From contig VFJS01000003.1 in NCBI GenBank assembly GCA_009885955.1, positions 62,001 through 126,000 on the forward strand: 64,000 bases of DNA. The letters run 5' to 3'. Positions 11,423 through 47,995 of the stretch are shown here, piece by piece (the first letter of the stretch is position 1; each line of letters begins with the position of its first letter). This DNA is from Spirochaetia bacterium. Its GTDB lineage: Bacteria > Spirochaetota > UBA4802 > UBA5550. The notes under the pieces were generated by a model. It was given only the letters and a program-made list of their open reading frames with translations. It did not search any database and was not told where the DNA came from. Both the position numbers and the translations under genes were made by a program.

Positions 11423-11442
11423 GTATAGATTCCTCCTGTTTG

Positions 11443-11456
11443 TAACTATTTAGTTA
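11443..11456. promoter_or_regulatory. Dyad TAACTA-TT-TAGTTA before napA
   Basis: A perfect 6-bp inverted repeat lies directly upstream of the napA ribosome-binding site, in a 137-bp gap within the cluster. It could be an operator for an internal promoter or an RNA hairpin in the message. No -35/-10 pair stands out. Confidence 0.3.
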
Positions 11457-11465
11457 TAAATTTAT

Positions 11466-11500
11466 GCTCACGGATGAGCACGGATATTCACGGATTTTTT
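11466..11500. repeat. CTCACGGAT-family repeat, half copy
   Basis: The sequence begins GCTCACGGAT and repeats ACGGAT words, matching the left arms of the full elements at 31962-32101 and 44128-44236. No matching right arm is present here. It lies in the gap between the eight-heme cytochrome and napA genes. Confidence 0.65.
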
Positions 11501-11559
11501 AATATCGTTATCATACACTATATCTAATAAACCATGATGAATTATATGCTTTGCATGAT

Positions 11560-28689: not shown

Positions 28690-29568
28690 TCACTTGAATT
28701 TGAATACTTTCACGCACAGGTCCCCGAAGGAGCCCAGACTGTCGCACACATGTATGCCGCTCTTTTTCATGGTCTCAATTTTGCTCTGAGCAGTGCCGCT
28801 CTTTCCGCTTATGATTGCCCCTGCATGGCCCATCCTGCGGCCTGCAGGCGCGGTGAGCCCGGCGATGAATCCTATGACCGGTTTTTTAACGTTTTTCACG
28901 ATGAATTCCGATGCTGCCTCCTCGGCATTTCCACCGATCTCGCCTACCATGACTATCCCCTTTGTTTCAGTATCGTTCTGAAAGGCTTCGAGGCAGTCTA
29001 TGAAATTGGTCCCGTTTACCGGGTCTCCGCCTATACCGACACAGGTGGTCTGGCCTATTCCCCTGAGGCTCAGCTGGTTCACCACCTCATAGGTGAGGGT
29101 GCCGGACCTGGAGACAACGCCTATGGGGCCTCCGGGGGTATGTATTTTTGCCGGCATGATCCCGATTTTACATTTCCCCGGGGATATGATTCCCGGGCAG
29201 TTGGGGCCTATGAGGTGGGTCTTTTTTCCTGACATGAAGTTTTTTATTTTTATCATATCCATGATCGGTATTCCTTCGGTAATGGCAACTACAAGGTCAA
29301 CGCCTGCGTCAACGGCTTCCATTATTGCGTCTGCGGCAAAGGGAGGCGGAACAAATATCATGCTGCAGTTTGCCCCGGCCTTTGCCACTGCTTCCTTAAC
29401 GGTATTAAAAACCGGGATGTCGTCCATTTTCTGGCCGCCTTTGCCCGGTGTCACCCCTGCTACCACCTTTGTCCCGTATGCAACGCACTGCCTTGTGTGG
29501 AACTGGCCTTCATTTCCCGTAATCCCCTGGACCAGGAGCCGGGTGTTATTGTCAACAAATATGCTCAT
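28690..29568 (-). CDS. sucD: Succinyl-CoA synthetase alpha subunit
   Basis: The roughly 292-residue protein has the CoA-binding Rossmann fold (Q-G-I-T-G-N-E-G), the G-P-N-C-P-G-I segment and the phospho-histidine loop G-H-A-G-A-I-I-S-G. The start is the ATG at 29568, which has GGAGG 7 nt upstream; the frame is open to 29589. With SucC it interconverts succinyl-CoA and succinate with NTP formation. In the propionate route of this window it would link methylmalonyl-CoA mutase to succinate. Confidence 0.95.
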
Positions 29569-29615
29569 TGAATCCTCCATTATGTTCATAGTAATTGGTA
29601 TGTTGAAATATCATT

Positions 29616-31941: not shown

Positions 31942-31961
31942 TCATTCCTGTTTAAATAATA

Positions 31962-32101
31962 GCTCACGGATTCACACGGATGTTCACGGATTTTTTATCA
32001 TTCAAAATCATTCTGATAAAAATTTTTTAATTCTGGGAAATGTTTAAATATAATATTTTATTTTCCTTCTTATCCATTTTAATCCGTGCCCATCCATGAG
32101 C
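31962..32101. repeat. CTCACGGAT-family inverted element (140 bp)
   Basis: It starts GCTCACGGATTC and ends ATCCATGAGC. The inner words are ACACGGATG / TTCACGGAT on the left and AATCCGTGCCCATCC on the right, with an AT-rich centre. It fills the mutase-meaB gap. A second full copy is at 44128-44236 next to the epimerase gene. Confidence 0.8.
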
Positions 32102-32145: not shown

Positions 32146-34272
32146 CTACTTCTTTTCAATGGCATTGAGTACCCTGTTCGCTGCCTCTGTGATGACTGTG
32201 CCCGGTCCGAAAATGCCGGCAACTCCTGCCTTTTCAAGGAACTCGTAGTCCCTGGGCGGGATTACTCCGCCTGCCACGACCTTGATCTCGTCGCCTCCGA
32301 TTTTTTTCAGCGATTCAATGAGGGCCGGGATAAGAGTCTTGTGCCCTGCTGCCAGTGACGAGGCGCCGACAACATGGACGTCGTTCTCAACTGCCATTTT
32401 TGCCGCCTCTTCCGGTGTCTGGAACATGGGTCCGATGTCCACGTCAAATCCAAGATCGGCAAAGGCCGTTGCAACCACCTTGACCCCCCTGTCGTGGCCG
32501 TCCTGTCCCATCTTTGACATGAGGATCCTTGGCCTGCGCCCCTCTTTTTTCATGAAATCCTCAGTCCTTTTCTGTAATGATTTTATGATATCGCTGTTCC
32601 CGAACTCCGATGAGTATATGCCCGATATGCATTGGGTTGTTGCCACAAACCTTCCGTAGACCTTTTCCATCGCATCGGATATTTCACCCACCGTTGCCCG
32701 GGCCCGAACTGCCGTGAGGCATGTCTCGAGAAGGTTCCCGTTTGACTGGGCGCATTTCACTAAGTCTGCAAGGGCCTTTTCCACGGCCCCGTTGTCACGC
32801 TTCGCCTTTATCTCGTTCAGCCTTGCCACCTGTTCGTCCCGTACCTGGCTTGTGACCTCCCTCACATCCTCTATGGCATCCTCTTTGATTTTGTATTTGT
32901 TCACTCCCACGATGATGTCCTTTCCCATGTCGATGCGGGCCTGCTTGCGGGCCGCCGATTCTTCAATCCTCATCTTGGGCATCCCCGATTCAATGGCCTT
33001 TGCCATTCCGCCCAGGTCTTCTATCTCTTTTAATATGATCCTGACTTTTTCGATTATGGAGGATGTCAGGGATTCAACATAATAGGATCCGCCCAGGGGG
33101 TCAACAACGTGGCAGACCTGCGATTCCTCCTGTACGATGAGCTGGGTGTTTCTGGCTATCCGCGCCGAGGTGTCTGTGGGGAGGCCCACTGCTTCGTCAT
33201 AGGAGTTTGTATGGAGAGACTGGGTCCCGCCGAGTACCGCAGACATGCATTCCAGGGTCGTCCGTATGATGTTATTGTAGGGGTCCTGCTGTGTGAGGCT
33301 CCAGCCCGATGTCTGGCAGTGGGTCCGGAGCATTTTGGATTCATCCTTATTAGGATTGAAACGGCCCATGAGCTCGTTCCATAAAAACCTGGCTGCCCTC
33401 AGCATTGCTATGTCCATGAAGAAGTTCATCCCGATTCCGAAGAAGAATGAGAGCCTCGGGGCAAAGTCGTCAATGTTGAGCCCGCTTGCAATGGCGGCCT
33501 TGACGTATTCCAGGCCGTTGGCCAGGGTAAAGGCCGTCTGCAGAACAGAATCGGCGCCGGCTTCCATTATGTGGTAACCGCTGATGCTCACCGTGTTGTA
33601 CTTCGGCATGTTTTTTGAGCAGTATGCGATGATATCCGACACGATCCTCATGGACGGGGTTGGAGGGTAGATGTATGTGTTTCTTGTAAGATATTCTTTT
33701 AAGATGTCGTTCTGGATGGTGCCGGTGAGTTTCTCCTGTGGCACCCCATGTTCCTCGGCAGCGATGATATACATGGCGAGTATGGGGAGTACGGCGCCGT
33801 TCATGGTCATGGATACGGACATCTGATCGAGAGGAATCTGGTCAAAGAGGATCTTCATGTCCTCCACGGAGTCGATGGCTACGCCCGCCTTTCCCACGTC
33901 GCCCACAACCCTCGGGTGGTCCGAATCGTATCCCCTGTGCGTGGCCAGGTCAAAGGCCACCGAGAGCCCCATCTGCCCGGCAGCGAGGTTTTTCCGGTAA
34001 AACTGGTTTGATTCCCTTGCGGTGGAAAATCCGGCATACTGGCGGATGGTCCATGGACGCGCAGAGTACATGGTGGCCCTGGGCCCCCTTACAAAGGGCT
34101 CTATCCCCGGGTAGGTGTCCGCGGATTCCAGGCCTGCCGTGTCCCCGGAATCATAAAGCGGTTTCACTTCGATCCCTTCAGGGGTCAGCCAGTTCAGGGT
34201 ATCAGGGGATTTTCCTTTCAGGTCCTTGCCTGCTGCCTGTTCCCACTGCTTTTTTTTTGAATTTTCTGACAT
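32146..34272 (-). CDS. scpA: Methylmalonyl-CoA mutase, catalytic chain with B12 domain
   Basis: The 708-residue protein has the substrate barrel ([16 protein letters not shown] near 70, [17 protein letters not shown]) and a C-terminal cobalamin domain. That domain has the G-Q-D-G-H-D-R-G motif, whose histidine replaces the lower B12 ligand. It is the homodimer or alpha-chain type, so no small subunit is required. It converts succinyl-CoA and (R)-methylmalonyl-CoA. The start at 34272 has AAGGAG. The message would have a leader of roughly 370 nt carrying a repeat element. Confidence 0.95.
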
Positions 34273-34380
34273 AAAATTCTCCTTAGTGTTTTTGTTGATG
34301 ATATCACATCAAAATAGAATTAATTATAATTGCTGGATAAATGGCTCATTATTCGATGAACTTTCAGTTATTTCCATGTG

Positions 34381-34552
34381 TAAGAACGGGGGATGGGGGG
34401 ATATTCGAGATATGGGGGATAATATAAATTTCTATAAAAAATCAGACAAAATCTGAAAACCTACTGTCATCATTGATTAGAAAGTATAATATCAGGAAAT
34501 ATCCCCCTATCTCTCTCTCTTATCTCCTCATCCCCCTGTCTCCTTATTCTTA
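34381..34552. repeat. GGGGGATA-family inverted element, copy 2
   Basis: The left arm (AAGAACGGGGGATGGGGGGA, then TATGGGGGATA) and the right arm (TATCCCCCTATC, ATCCCCCTGTC, TTATTCTT) are inverted around an AT-rich centre. It lies between the mutase start and the shared operator at 34638. The rest of the 473-bp gap holds that operator, a TTGACA box and the terminator of the GGDEF/EAL gene. Confidence 0.78.
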
Positions 34553-34637
34553 ATATAAAATTTAGAAAAATTATTGGTGAATTAGGCACTGCTGATATCG
34601 GTCACATTGATACATACCTCACACGGCAGCGGCCAAC

Positions 34638-34665
34638 TTGTATATTTGTATCAACAATGATACAA
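34638..34665 (-). promoter_or_regulatory. Propionate-regulon operator, mutase copy
   Basis: Read on the minus strand this 28-bp site is TTGTATCA-TTGT-TGATACAA (perfect 8-bp arms) followed by ATATACAA, a third half-site. A TTGACA box lies 20 nt upstream (34686-34691), with TATAAG just before the operator. The same site with one base changed is at 44315-44342 before the carboxyltransferase gene. I infer the binding site of one repressor or activator of propionate metabolism. Confidence 0.72.
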
Positions 34666-43673: not shown

Positions 43674-44078
43674 TCAATCCCTCTGGCAGAGCTCCACGAG
43701 AATCCCGCCTGTGGACTTTGGATGGAGAAAGGCGATCTTTGCCCCGCCCGCACCGATCCTCGGTGCCTCGTCGATGAGCTTCACCCCTTTCTCCTTCAGC
43801 TCTTTTAGTGCCTCTTCGATGTTCTCCACCCTGAAGGCTATATGCTGCATCCCTTCGCCTTTTTTTTCTATGTACTTGGCAACTGGCCCGTCGGGCGAGG
43901 TGGACTGGAGAAGTTCAACCTCGCTCTCTCCCACGGGGAAGAATGCAGTGGTGACCTTCTGCTCTTCCACGGTCTCGGCCCCTTCAAAATGGAGGCCCAG
44001 GATATCAACCCAGAATTTTTTTCCCTCATCGATGCTGTTTACGGCTATGCCCAGATGGTCAATTTTTAGAATTTTCAT
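43674..44078 (-). CDS. mce: Methylmalonyl-CoA epimerase
   Basis: The 134-residue VOC-fold protein has D-H-L-G-I-A-V near its start, M-Q-H-I-A-F-R-V in the middle and L-V-E-L-C-Q at the end. These supply the metal-binding His, His and Glu of the family. It interconverts (S)- and (R)-methylmalonyl-CoA, the step between the carboxyltransferase and the mutase. It is transcribed away from the carboxyltransferase gene across a 464-bp region holding a repeat, a promoter and the shared operator. Confidence 0.92.
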   Translation of the reverse strand: MKILKIDHLGIAVNSIDEGKKFWVDILGLHFEGAETVEEQKVTTAFFPVGESEVELLQSTSPDGPVAKYIEKKGEGMQHIAFRVENIEEALKELKEKGVKLIDEAPRIGAGGAKIAFLHPKSTGGILVELCQRD

Positions 44079-44127
44079 TTTATACTCCTTTTAATATGAA
44101 AGTTGTAAATACTCAGTTTAAATATTT

Positions 44128-44236
44128 GCTCACGGATTTACGCGGATATTCACGGATTATTTTATTATGTTCGATACAAGAAGCTTACCTACTAACTTCA
44201 TTTTTTATCTGTGTTCATCCGTGCCAATCCGTGAGC
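44128..44236. repeat. CTCACGGAT-family inverted element (109 bp)
   Basis: It starts GCTCACGGATTTACGCGGAT and ends CCGTGCCAATCCGTGAGC. The TTGACA of a minus-strand promoter (44251-44256) lies just outside its right end, so the element sits where the -10 of the epimerase promoter would be expected. Confidence 0.82.
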
Positions 44237-44287: not shown

Positions 44288-44316
44288 TTGACAAAGGGCC
44301 ATTTTAATTTTATATT
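44288..44316 (+). promoter_or_regulatory. Promoter of the carboxyltransferase operon
   Basis: TTGACA (44288-44293) and TATATT (44311-44316) are 17 bp apart. The shared operator begins at 44315, overlapping the -10 and the expected start point, the usual place for a repressor. The leader to the ATG at 44543 would be about 220 nt. Confidence 0.6.
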
Positions 44317-44342
44317 GTATTATTGTTGATACAAATATACAA
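44315..44342 (+). promoter_or_regulatory. Propionate-regulon operator, carboxyltransferase copy
   Basis: The 28-bp site reads TTGTATTA-TTGT-TGATACAA followed by ATATACAA. It is identical to the mutase copy except at position 7. It lies between the divergent epimerase and carboxyltransferase genes and could control both. Confidence 0.72.
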
Positions 44343-44542: not shown

Positions 44543-46093
44543 ATGAAAGATAAAAAGCAGCACCTCTCCTCCTTGATCAAGGAGGCAAAATTGGGCGGCG
44601 GCCAGGATAAAATCGACAAACTGCATGCCAAAAACTGCCTTACGGCAAGGGAGCGAATCGAACACCTTCTCGACAAGGGAAGCTTTGAGGAATTCGACAT
44701 GTTCAAGCAGCACCGCTGCCGCGATTTCGGCATGGAGGACAAGCAGTTCCTTGGAGACGGCGTTGTCGTGGGCCACGGCACCGTTGACGGCCGGGTGGTC
44801 TGCGTTTTTTCCTATGACTCTACCGTTTTCGGCGGGTCCCTTTCCGAGACCATGGCTGAGAAGATATGCAAGACCGTGGAACTGGCTGCGAAAATAGGCG
44901 CACCGGTAGTCGGATTCAATGATTCCGGCGGAGCAAGGATCCAGGAAGGCATTGAGAGCCTTGCAGGCTATGCAGATATATTTTTAAGAAACGTCATGTA
45001 TTCCGGCGTGGTGCCGCAGATTTCAGGGATGTTCGGGCCCTGCGCCGGCGGCGCTGTATATTCCCCTGCGCTCACCGACTTCAATATCATGGTGAAGGGA
45101 ACAGGAACCATGTTTATCACCGGGCCGAAGGTTGTTGAATCGGTCACCGGCGAAAAGATTTCCTCCGAGGATCTCGGCGGAGCCGATGTCCATAACAAAA
45201 GGTCGGGCGTGGCCCACTTTGAGGCATCATCGGATCAGGATGCCATAGGGCAGATTAAACGGCTGCTCTCCTTTCTCCCGTCAAACAACATGGAGGATGC
45301 GCCTCTCGTTGAGACAGACGACCAGGCCGACAGGAAAATACCGCAGCTCGACGCCCTCATACCCGAGAGCCCCAATCAGCCCTACGACATGATGGATGCC
45401 ATTCTCCCGATACTCGATAACAATGATTTTATGGAAGTCCAGGCCTGCTATGCCATGAATATGATCGTGGGTTTCGGCCGCCTCTACGGCAGGACAGTGG
45501 GCATCGTTGCAAACCAGCCCAATGTAATGGCCGGCGTCATCGACATTAACGCATCGGTAAAGGCCGCGCGTTTTGTACGGTTCTGTGACGCCTTCAATAT
45601 CCCCATTGTAACTTTTGTCGATGTACCCGGTTTCATGCCCGGCACCGTGCAGGAATTCAACGGGATCATCAGGCACGGGGCAAAACTCATCTATGCCTAT
45701 GCCGAGGCCACGGTGCCCAAGCTGACGGTCATAACCAGGAAGGCATACGGCGGCGCCTACTGCGTCATGAGCTCGAAACATATGAGGGGCGACATCAATT
45801 ACGCATGGCCGACAGCAGAGATCTCGGTTATGGGGCCCAGCGGCGCAATCGAGATTGTCTTTAACAAGGAGATAAAAGAGGCCCCTGCCGACAAGAAGGC
45901 AGAGATAACAAGTAAGAAGATTGAGGAATATACCGAGAAGTTTGCCAACCCCTACAGGGCTGCAGGCAGGGGTTACATTGATGATGTTATCCTCCCCGGC
46001 TCAACCAGGTTCAGGCTCATACGGGCTCTTGAGATGCTGCAGACAAAGAGCGATAAGAATCCTCTGAAAAAGCACGGGAATATCCCGTTATAA
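44543..46093 (+). CDS. Acyl-CoA carboxyltransferase (propionyl-CoA carboxylase beta / methylmalonyl-CoA decarboxylase alpha)
   Basis: The 516-residue protein has the two crotonase-like halves of biotin-dependent carboxyltransferases, with oxyanion-loop glycines in [17 protein letters not shown] and A-Y-G-G-A-Y. It is the PccB/MmdA family. The following OadG-like and biotin-carrier genes favour the membrane decarboxylase/transcarboxylase type. A biotin carboxylase gene is not in the window. A GGGAG site lies 8 nt before the ATG. Confidence 0.9.
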
Positions 46094-46105: not shown

Positions 46106-46462
46106 ATGGATTGTCTATCATATAAATGCGGCAGCGCTTTCGGCCACGCGGGTTTCATCATACTCGGGGCCGTGGCGCTTGTCATCGGGATCGCGGCCAT
46201 TGTCGTGGCCCTTCTGGCGCTCAGAAAGAGCTTCGGAGGATCCTTCAGGCCGGCCGCAGAGAAGTCCCGCGGAACAAAATCCCCGGTACTGGAACAAACG
46301 GTAAAAGCGGCAGGTACTGAGACAGGAGAAGCGGCAGCGGCCATAGGCCTGGCGCTCGCAATGGTTAAGATAAAAAACAGCTCAAGGCAGATCACTGTCA
46401 AACGGGTATACAGGTCGGGATGGAAGGAGTCCCTCCGTTCCGGGGCCATGGACAGGTTATAG
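46106..46462 (+). CDS. OadG-like small membrane subunit
   Basis: The 118-residue protein has one N-terminal membrane helix (about 16-40), a polar Ala/Thr-rich linker and a C-terminal basic segment with W-K-E near the end. That is the layout of the gamma/delta subunits of sodium-pumping decarboxylases, which tether the carboxyltransferase and biotin carrier to the membrane. Its position between these two genes matches Bacteroidetes-type mmd operons. Sequence conservation in this family is low, so the call rests partly on context. Confidence 0.68.
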   Translation: MDCLSYKCGSAFGHAGFIILGAVALVIGIAAIVVALLALRKSFGGSFRPAAEKSRGTKSPVLEQTVKAAGTETGEAAAAIGLALAMVKIKNSSRQITVKRVYRSGWKESLRSGAMDRL

Positions 46463-46497
46463 ACTGGCGGTTTATCATAAATAATCAGAGGTTAACA

Positions 46498-46977
46498 ATG
46501 GACATATTTAATTTCAATATTAACAGCAACCCCTATGAAGTAAAGATTCATTCAATTTCCGGGAGGAACGCCTCGGTAGAGGTTAACGGTGTGAAGTACG
46601 ACGTTGACATGAAGGATGATTTTGACGTTGATATGTCTTCCTCGGTCCCTGTGCAGAAACCGGTTGTCCAGAAGAGCCAGGTTCAGCCTGCACAAAAGGT
46701 CCAGGAGCAGAAGAAAGCGCCTGAGACGGTTCAGAAACAGCAGGCCCCGGCGCAGAAGGCTGGCGGAGCAAAGACAATCGTATCCCCCATGCCCGGGCAG
46801 GTCTTCAAGGTTCTTGTGGCCGAAGGCGATTCTATAAAATCGGGCGACATTGTGGTGACCATTGAGGCCATGAAAATGGAGAACCAGATCCGCTCCACCA
46901 TGGACGGGACAGTGACAAAGGTCCATGTAAAGGAAGGAGATGTTCTCGCCGAAGGGGCGCCGCTGGTTTCTCTGTAA
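46498..46977 (+). CDS. Biotin carboxyl carrier protein
   Basis: The start is the ATG at 46498 (AGAGG site); the frame is open from 46420. The 159-residue protein has an N-terminal beta segment, a Pro/Gln/Lys/Val-rich flexible linker (about 45-90) and a C-terminal biotinyl domain. The biotinylated lysine lies in E-A-M-K-M. It carries carboxyl groups for the adjacent carboxyltransferase. The operon then meets a 196-bp repeat where a beta (ion-pump) subunit gene would often follow. Confidence 0.92.
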   Translation: MDIFNFNINSNPYEVKIHSISGRNASVEVNGVKYDVDMKDDFDVDMSSSVPVQKPVVQKSQVQPAQKVQEQKKAPETVQKQQAPAQKAGGAKTIVSPMPGQVFKVLVAEGDSIKSGDIVVTIEAMKMENQIRSTMDGTVTKVHVKEGDVLAEGAPLVSL

Positions 46978-46987
46978 CTAATACAAA

Positions 46988-47183
46988 ATGCCCTCACCCC
47001 CGGCCCCTCTCCCGGAATAGGGAGAGGGGAGCGAGTAAATCAAATTTATGGATTGTATACTATGGAAATTTGTAAAATTGCCGGTATAAACTTTAACAAG
47101 AATTGATAAAATATTTGGATTTTTTTATAAACAGAAGCCCTCGCCCTATTGGGAGAGGGCGCGCAGAGCGCGGGTGAGGGCAT
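46988..47183. repeat. Bipartite CCCTCACC element E4 (196 bp), reversed
   Basis: Arm A (CCCCTCTCCC / GGGAGAGGGG) is on the left and arm B (AGCCCTCGCCC / GGGCGCGCAGAGCGCGGGTG) on the right, opposite in orientation to E1 and E2. The ends are ATGCCCTCACCC and GGGTGAGGGCAT. The right end contains the GTG start codon of the biotin ligase gene. Confidence 0.88.
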
Positions 47184-47995
47184 CGAATCGATCCTTCGAC
47201 GGAGAGCTCCTCCTCCCCGATACCATACGGAAAGGGTTGGCCACGAAAATTCTCGGCCGGAAAGAAATTTACCATTACACCGATATTGATTCCACCAATG
47301 ACAGGGCCGATACCCTTGCTGCCGGGGGCGCGCCTGAGGGGACCCTTGTCATAGCCGAATCGCAGACTTCCGGCAGGGGGCGGCATGGAAGAAAATGGCT
47401 CTCTCCGGCAGGGGAGGGTATTTATCTGTCCCTTATCCTCAGGCCCGGAATATCAATGCATGAATCACAGAAAATCACACTCATATCTGCTGTTGCCGCT
47501 GCACTCGCCGTAAAAAAAATTTATCATGGCGGCCTCATCATAAAATGGCCCAATGACATCCTTATCAATAAAAAAAAACTTGCCGGGATACTTACAACAA
47601 TGATCAGCAGCGGGAAAACGCCTGATTATGTCATCATGGGTATGGGGATGAATGTTAATACAAGAGAAGAATCAATGCCCCTGGAGATTAGGGATATAGC
47701 CACCTCGCTACGCATTGAGACAGGCAGAGCATGGAGCCGCAGCCTCATTGTCCGTGAATTTCTGGTTTTTTTTGAATACTACTATGACCTGCTTTTGAAG
47801 GGCGAATCGGCGCTCCTTATTGATACATGGAAGGATTTATCAGGACTTATGGGGAGAAGGGTGACTGTGGACCTGATGGAAAGTGGATATAACGGGACAA
47901 TAATCGGTATAGACAGAGAGGGATTTCTCCTTCTCAGGGATGACGAAGGGTTAGTGCAGAGAATAGTATCAGGAGAAATTGTTAAAATCTATTAA
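47174..47995 (+). CDS. birA: Biotin-protein ligase, catalytic part
   Basis: The 273-residue protein has the BirA catalytic domain (D-S-T-N, biotin loop G-R-G-R-H-G-R-K-W, K-W-P-N-D-I) and the C-terminal SH3-like domain (G-R-R-V-T-V ... G-F-L-L-L-R-D). The first residues (L-L-L-P-D-T-I-R-K-G-L) are the linker that normally follows a DNA-binding domain in bifunctional BirA, but that domain is absent. The frame upstream is repeat DNA with a stop at 47087, and the GTG start is inside element E4. The gene may thus be 5'-truncated by the repeat. It would biotinylate the carrier protein encoded just upstream. Confidence 0.88.
   Translation: MRASNRSFDGELLLPDTIRKGLATKILGRKEIYHYTDIDSTNDRADTLAAGGAPEGTLVIAESQTSGRGRHGRKWLSPAGEGIYLSLILRPGISMHESQKITLISAVAAALAVKKIYHGGLIIKWPNDILINKKKLAGILTTMISSGKTPDYVIMGMGMNVNTREESMPLEIRDIATSLRIETGRAWSRSLIVREFLVFFEYYYDLLLKGESALLIDTWKDLSGLMGRRVTVDLMESGYNGTIIGIDREGFLLLRDDEGLVQRIVSGEIVKIY

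Follow-up and report, generated by a model that had tools for sequence, protein, structure and literature searches.

Which regulator, if any, reads the 28-bp sequence found upstream of the methylmalonyl-CoA mutase gene of this spirochaete, and which other genes share it? To approach this question, we analyzed a stretch of 64,000 nucleotides (the window). The 28-mer at 34638-34665 on the minus strand is identical at 27 of 28 positions to that at 44315-44342 on the plus strand, in front of the carboxyltransferase gene. No third copy with three or fewer mismatches was present in the 64-kb window. A sequence-only reading had reported this match and TTGACA boxes 20-21 bp before both sites, and had judged chance identity to be very unlikely. 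The coordinates and the single mismatch were reproduced, the two boxes were located, and shuffled sequences gave 0.00 expected matches in the window. The elements are as follows:

34638-34665, minus strand: candidate operator of the mutase locus, 28 bp, TTGTATCATTGTTGATACAAATATACAA, a ladder of the form TTGT-N4-TTGT-N4-ACAA-N4-ACAA
34646-34657, minus strand: inner core TTGTTGATACAA, operator positions 9-20, with GT-N4-AC as in HutC-subfamily operators (PMC4494728)
34686-34691, minus strand: TTGACA promoter-like box, 20 bp upstream of the mutase operator
44315-44342, plus strand: partner candidate operator before mmdA, inside the divergent mce/mmdA interval
44288-44293, plus strand: TTGACA box, 21 bp upstream of the mmdA operator

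The claim that both loci encode steps of one pathway was borne out by domain or model matches in the mutase-MeaB-sucCD and mmdA loci:

28690-29589, minus strand: SucD-type CoA ligase, alpha subunit, syntenic in L090
29643-30812, minus strand: SucC-type CoA ligase, beta subunit, syntenic in L090
30961-31941, minus strand: MeaB GTPase (mutase chaperone; Pfam)
32146-34272, minus strand: methylmalonyl-CoA mutase, 708 aa (Pfam; NF006944, 1224 bits, cutoff 876)
43674-44078, minus strand: methylmalonyl-CoA epimerase (TIGR03081, 167 bits, cutoff 115)
44543-46093, plus strand: MmdA/12S-type carboxyltransferase, 516 aa (best model TIGR01117, score below its cutoff)
46420-46977, plus strand: biotin carrier protein
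47174-47995, plus strand: biotin-protein ligase

The epimerase gene, which is divergent from mmdA, is possibly under the mmdA-side operator. The mutase operator does not adjoin its gene, the start codon being 366 bp downstream. The intervening leader (34273-34637, 365 bp) contains G-rich and AG-rich tracts, and an Rfam search of 26000-50000 gave no match to riboswitches or other RNA elements. Given that the mutase gene lies inside a tight cluster in G006, a genome of the sister genus, this interval may contain inserted sequence. The window also encodes a TumE-like toxin family protein (PF20126; 42785-43123, minus strand) near the mmdA locus and a histone-deacetylase-family protein (PF00850; 50179-51123, plus strand).

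The genome (4.77 Mb, 117 contigs) was searched by pattern, allowing up to three mismatches to TTGTATNNTTGTNNATACAANNATACAA. Exactly six sites were obtained, and strict and relaxed patterns returned the identical set. By a composition estimate, the relaxed pattern is expected about 0.07 times per genome by chance, and a reversed control pattern gave 0 matches across the 4.77-Mb genome. All six sites lie upstream of pathway-related genes and downstream of a TTGACA box:

Site i, window: methylmalonyl-CoA mutase, MeaB, SucC, SucD
Site ii, window: MmdA carboxyltransferase, a 118-aa protein, biotin carrier, biotin ligase, with the epimerase divergent
Site iii, C57: AMP-forming acyl-CoA synthetase (acetyl/propionyl-CoA type)
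Site iv, C10: pyruvate:ferredoxin oxidoreductase (POR), 1175 aa
Site v, C104: GntR-UTRA regulator, then fumarase alpha/beta and three-subunit fumarate reductase (fumAB-frdCAB)
Site vi, C70:272413: GlcD-like FAD oxidase, ferredoxin/MvhD-like protein, LarA-like protein (lactate-type operon)

Of these sites, that before glcD is the weakest. At four of the six loci, the leaders are 200-366 bp long. The sequence-only reading had proposed a genome-wide search, with many copies scattered without a pathway link as the outcome that would speak against a regulon; all six copies are pathway-linked. Weak 20-mer sites with two or three mismatches in the same genome (C25, C26, C41, C50, C55, C76 and C79) were taken as chance matches; in the three inspected (C25, C26 and C50), TTGACA was missing at the expected distance. 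A weak match at L101:2814-2833, with three mismatches to the motif's first 20 bases, before an acetyl-CoA acetyltransferase gene and without a TTGACA box, is probably also due to chance.

Another dispersed repeat does occur in these intergenic regions, which would speak for the 28-mer being itself a repeat without regulatory function. However, the 28-mer has six copies only, all at promoters and all pointing the same way with respect to TTGACA and the gene that follows, their 60-bp flanks are just 15-50% identical, and the site at gntR is conserved across genera. On the small copy number and the dissimilar flanks we rejected the repeat reading, whose probability we regard as negligible. The other repeat is separate from the operator: it is CACGGATTTACGCGGAT-like, about 40-70 bp long, also present as inverted copies (window 44103-44168, 31950-32001 and 11440-11511; L010:7197-7260; L008:3219-3328), and is found in several intergenic regions, some of them near two of the operators.

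Taken jointly, the six gene sets comprise nearly all steps from propionate to acetyl-CoA via the methylmalonyl-CoA route. The steps of this route are established biochemistry, and the pathway is reversible; therefore, the genes do not decide between propionate oxidation and lactate/succinate fermentation. The malic enzyme gene (C86) and the PYC_OADA gene (C80) had no recognisable site in the flanks examined. A gene of the OAD_beta (MmdB) family was not found in the window's genome; one is present in the G006 cluster (L090:16471-17643). Together with the 548-aa PYC_OADA-family frame on C80 (L119 is listed with this MmdB/PYC_OADA observation), the missing MmdB suggests that a transcarboxylase replaces the sodium-pumping decarboxylase.

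The regulator had been predicted to be encoded outside the window and to be of GntR or XRE type. A gntR gene was found on C104, and the GntR part of this prediction was retained, with a GntR/UTRA protein as the candidate, while the XRE alternative was dropped:

G000:C104:18322-19095 (L009:8323-9099): gntR, HutC subfamily (wHTH + UTRA), starting 23 bp after site v

The N-terminus matched the GntR winged HTH (PF00392, 56.8 bits, cutoff 27) and the C-terminus the UTRA effector domain (PF07702, 100.7 bits, cutoff 23.8). The protein is related to NagR/YvoA of B. subtilis and DasR of Streptomyces (PDB 4u0v and 4zs8; E 2e-16 and 1e-13). Its scores with the named NCBIfam HutC equivalogs (HutC, PhnF, TreR and others) were all far under cutoff (for example, 85 vs 220 for TIGR02018), and its named relatives are from uncultured Spirochaetes/Spirochaetota MAGs. 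Literature searches found no published regulator for this pathway in Spirochaetes. We consider this GntR protein from another contig the best candidate for binding the 28-bp sites.

Among 98 relatives, own genome included, 10 carry a gntR orthologue (again counting the own genome); a phylum sample of 393 genomes contained no further one. The site precedes gntR in nine of the ten, and a degenerate version, judged by eye from the gntR upstream sequence, is present in the tenth (G010). In G006, G002, G011, G015, G018, G022, G031 and G035, it is flanked by a TTGAC(A/G) box upstream and by the gntR start downstream; its mismatches number 1, 0, 2, 3, 1, 2, 1 and 4, respectively. Sites with at most two mismatches occurred in 7 of 10 genomes with GntR vs 1 of 88 without it (Fisher p about 7e-8, with the kinship of the genomes ignored). 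The one genome that has such a site but lacks GntR carries it, with two mismatches, at G037:C5:17888-17915 (L107:2889-2916), with no homologue of the regulon genes nearby. Mutase genes of genomes lacking GntR had no nearby site, the best matches having 7-8 mismatches.

The consensus of fourteen sites, TTGTATTATTGTTGATACAAATATACAA, can be read as TTGT-N4-TTGT-N4-ACAA-N4-ACAA. Its invariant G/C positions (G3, G11, C18 and C26) are symmetric about position 14.5. Raw complementarity is similar for the 20-bp and 28-bp readings (73% vs 67%) and makes no choice between the symmetries; the 28-bp reading is preferred because all invariant G/C pair up. The inner core positions G11 T12 and A17 C18 are likewise invariant in the 14 sites, giving GT-N4-AC, the HutC spacing. 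According to PMC4494728, GT and AC are separated by 4 nt in HutC operators, the average consensus GTMTAKAC is typical, with several HutC proteins listed as exceptions, and many GntR-family sites are reported to have extra half-sites, located 7-12 nt away from the centre. The present core is GTTGATAC (GTAGATAC or GTTAATAC at some sites), in which GT-N4-AC is retained and the central TA is not. For NagR, PMC4333415 assigns the reading of G-4 to Arg48 and that of G-5 to Arg38. In our alignment, the equivalent of Arg48 (helix D3) is conserved in 10 of 10 orthologues and that of Arg38 is Glu in all 10. This pattern fits the G at -4 and the T (sometimes A) at -5 of the site, and the site structure together with the Arg48 equivalent fits the predicted HutC-type binding. 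Binding by GntR is a prediction and the genome encodes further regulators, so a different transcription factor could bind all six sites, with gntR merely one of its targets. We hold this to be quite improbable, since the site tracks gntR over several genera and co-occurs with it, and since the HutC-type geometry and the Arg/Glu pattern in the helices that read the DNA fit GntR.

The promoter layout bears on how the candidate GntR would act. A TTGAC(A/G) box lies 19-21 bp before the site at 12 of the 14 loci (10 exact TTGACA, 2 TTGACG). The ten exact spacings have a chance probability of about 6e-26, assuming independence, which related promoters violate. TTGACA is 10 bp upstream of the POR site and 17 bp upstream of the glcD site; in G011, 4 bp separate the end of the operator from the gntR start codon. 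A TATAAT -10 box about 17 bp from TTGACA was seen neither at these promoters nor at the genome's other T-rich TTGACA boxes. Because no -10 was recognised, we infer the operator position relative to the start site: ordinary spacing would put the -10 and the start at the operator's left half, a repressor position.

From the sites and their number, the gene sets, the conserved linkage to gntR and the spacing of the boxes, all of them features of the sequence, we infer binding, repression and an effector. The site is, with high probability, the operator of an autoregulated GntR/HutC repressor that is encoded elsewhere in the genome, controls six transcription units, including that of its own gene, and is relieved by an effector. 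GntR would bind the 28-bp site just downstream of TTGACA, covering the probable -10/start region, and thereby repress these six units. An effector on the UTRA domain, most likely a pathway metabolite (propionate, propionyl-CoA or a related short carboxylate), would lift repression. Release would lead to joint expression of acyl-CoA synthetase, carboxyltransferase, mutase, MeaB, succinyl-CoA ligase, fumarate reductase, fumarase, POR and the lactate-type oxidation genes. The fixed 19-21 bp between TTGACA and site and the lack of a visible -10 could also mean that GntR positions RNA polymerase, which would make it an activator or a dual regulator and not a plain repressor. This is unlikely, as the operator is downstream of TTGACA, in G011 4 bp from the gntR start, which is typical for repression, and as the HutC relatives with solved structures, NagR and DasR, act as repressors.

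The sequence-only reading had proposed that the shared operator defines a propionate regulon, and six of six copies before pathway-related genes support such a regulon. The proposal holds for the methylmalonyl-CoA genes and is qualified by POR, the lactate-type operon and a lactate-transporter site in G011; propionate as the effector is a candidate. The second G011 site lies 18 bp after TTGACA and before a transporter passing the NCBIfam L-lactate MFS cutoff (SfMCT-type). The regulon could thus be real and GntR-bound and the signal be lactate, acetate or another monocarboxylate, with a role in lactate-to-propionate/acetate fermentation or general short-acid use. Besides this transporter, the own-genome sites before POR and the GlcD/MvhD/LarA operon favor such a signal, as does the partner gene in most relatives, an acyl-CoA synthetase whose own-genome copy (C57) passes the subfamily acetate-CoA ligase cutoff. 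On the other hand, the top models of this synthetase are propionate-CoA ligases, which score higher, albeit below their cutoffs, and nearly all other members belong to the methylmalonyl-CoA route. We regard a non-propionate signal as a serious possibility, yet not as the probable case.

The relatives also show how the proposed GntR regulon may have arisen. In seven of them, the gene after gntR encodes the acyl-CoA synthetase, the same gene that has its own site in the window's genome. In G006, a single site precedes a cluster in the order gntR, fumA, fumB, malic enzyme, frdC, frdA, frdB, epimerase, mutase, meaB, sucC, sucD, mmdA, OadG-like protein, biotin carrier and OadB-like membrane subunit, with biotin ligase further along, beyond the OadB-like subunit. 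In the window's genome, the enzymes of this cluster, except the OadB-like subunit, are split over separate loci; the C104 piece and both window pieces have their own operator. In most gntR-bearing relatives, the sole confident site is that at gntR, and the wider regulon rests largely on the window's genome, G006 and the one extra G011 site. A mutase at E 1e-150 was found in none of 18 other sampled family members; therefore, the simplest history is that an older site-gntR-acs unit took over the methylmalonyl-CoA cluster. We tentatively suggest, as a scenario just short of probable, that a small ancestral module of site, gntR and acyl-CoA synthetase captured, in one branch of the spirochaetes, the methylmalonyl-CoA pathway as a whole and that the cluster later broke up here, its main fragments keeping or regaining a near-identical 28-bp operator (an operon-to-regulon transition within two sister genera), with the four half-sites of the operator ladder bound by a cooperating pair of GntR dimers.

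PccR of alphaproteobacteria, the propionyl-CoA carboxylase regulator, controls propionyl-CoA and methylmalonyl-CoA genes; it is not a GntR protein and has a different operator. NagR (YvoA) and DasR share with the present regulator the wHTH and UTRA domains, a related operator geometry around G-4 and the conserved Arg48 equivalent. They differ in their regulon, in Arg38 (Glu here, with T at -5) and in their 15-bp dre site, which here is a 28-bp operator through extra outer TTGTAT half-sites; NagR blocks transcription from its dre sites (PMC4333415). The HutC-subfamily SdhR, described in proteobacteria with the motif TCTTATGTCTTATATAAGACATAAGA, resembles the present case in the additional symmetry of its motif, with repeated half-sites around a core, and its half-site TCTTAT differs (PMC4494728, citing J Bacteriol 2012;194:3234). 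The paper cited there for SdhR concerns malonate and propionate catabolism. The Shewanella PrpR, of the GntR family as here and from another phylum, is predicted to control propionate catabolism (PMC3223726).

We thus propose a regulator, an operator and a gene list for propionate metabolism in an uncultured Spirochaetota lineage. This is a new regulon under a known kind of regulator, ordinary in class and logic and with no new mechanism. The 28-mer and GntR together would provide a sequence handle to recognise the regulated pathway in metagenomes. With one cluster and one operator in G006 vs split loci with an operator at each main piece in the window's genome, the steps by which an operon broke up to become a regulon may be directly traceable.
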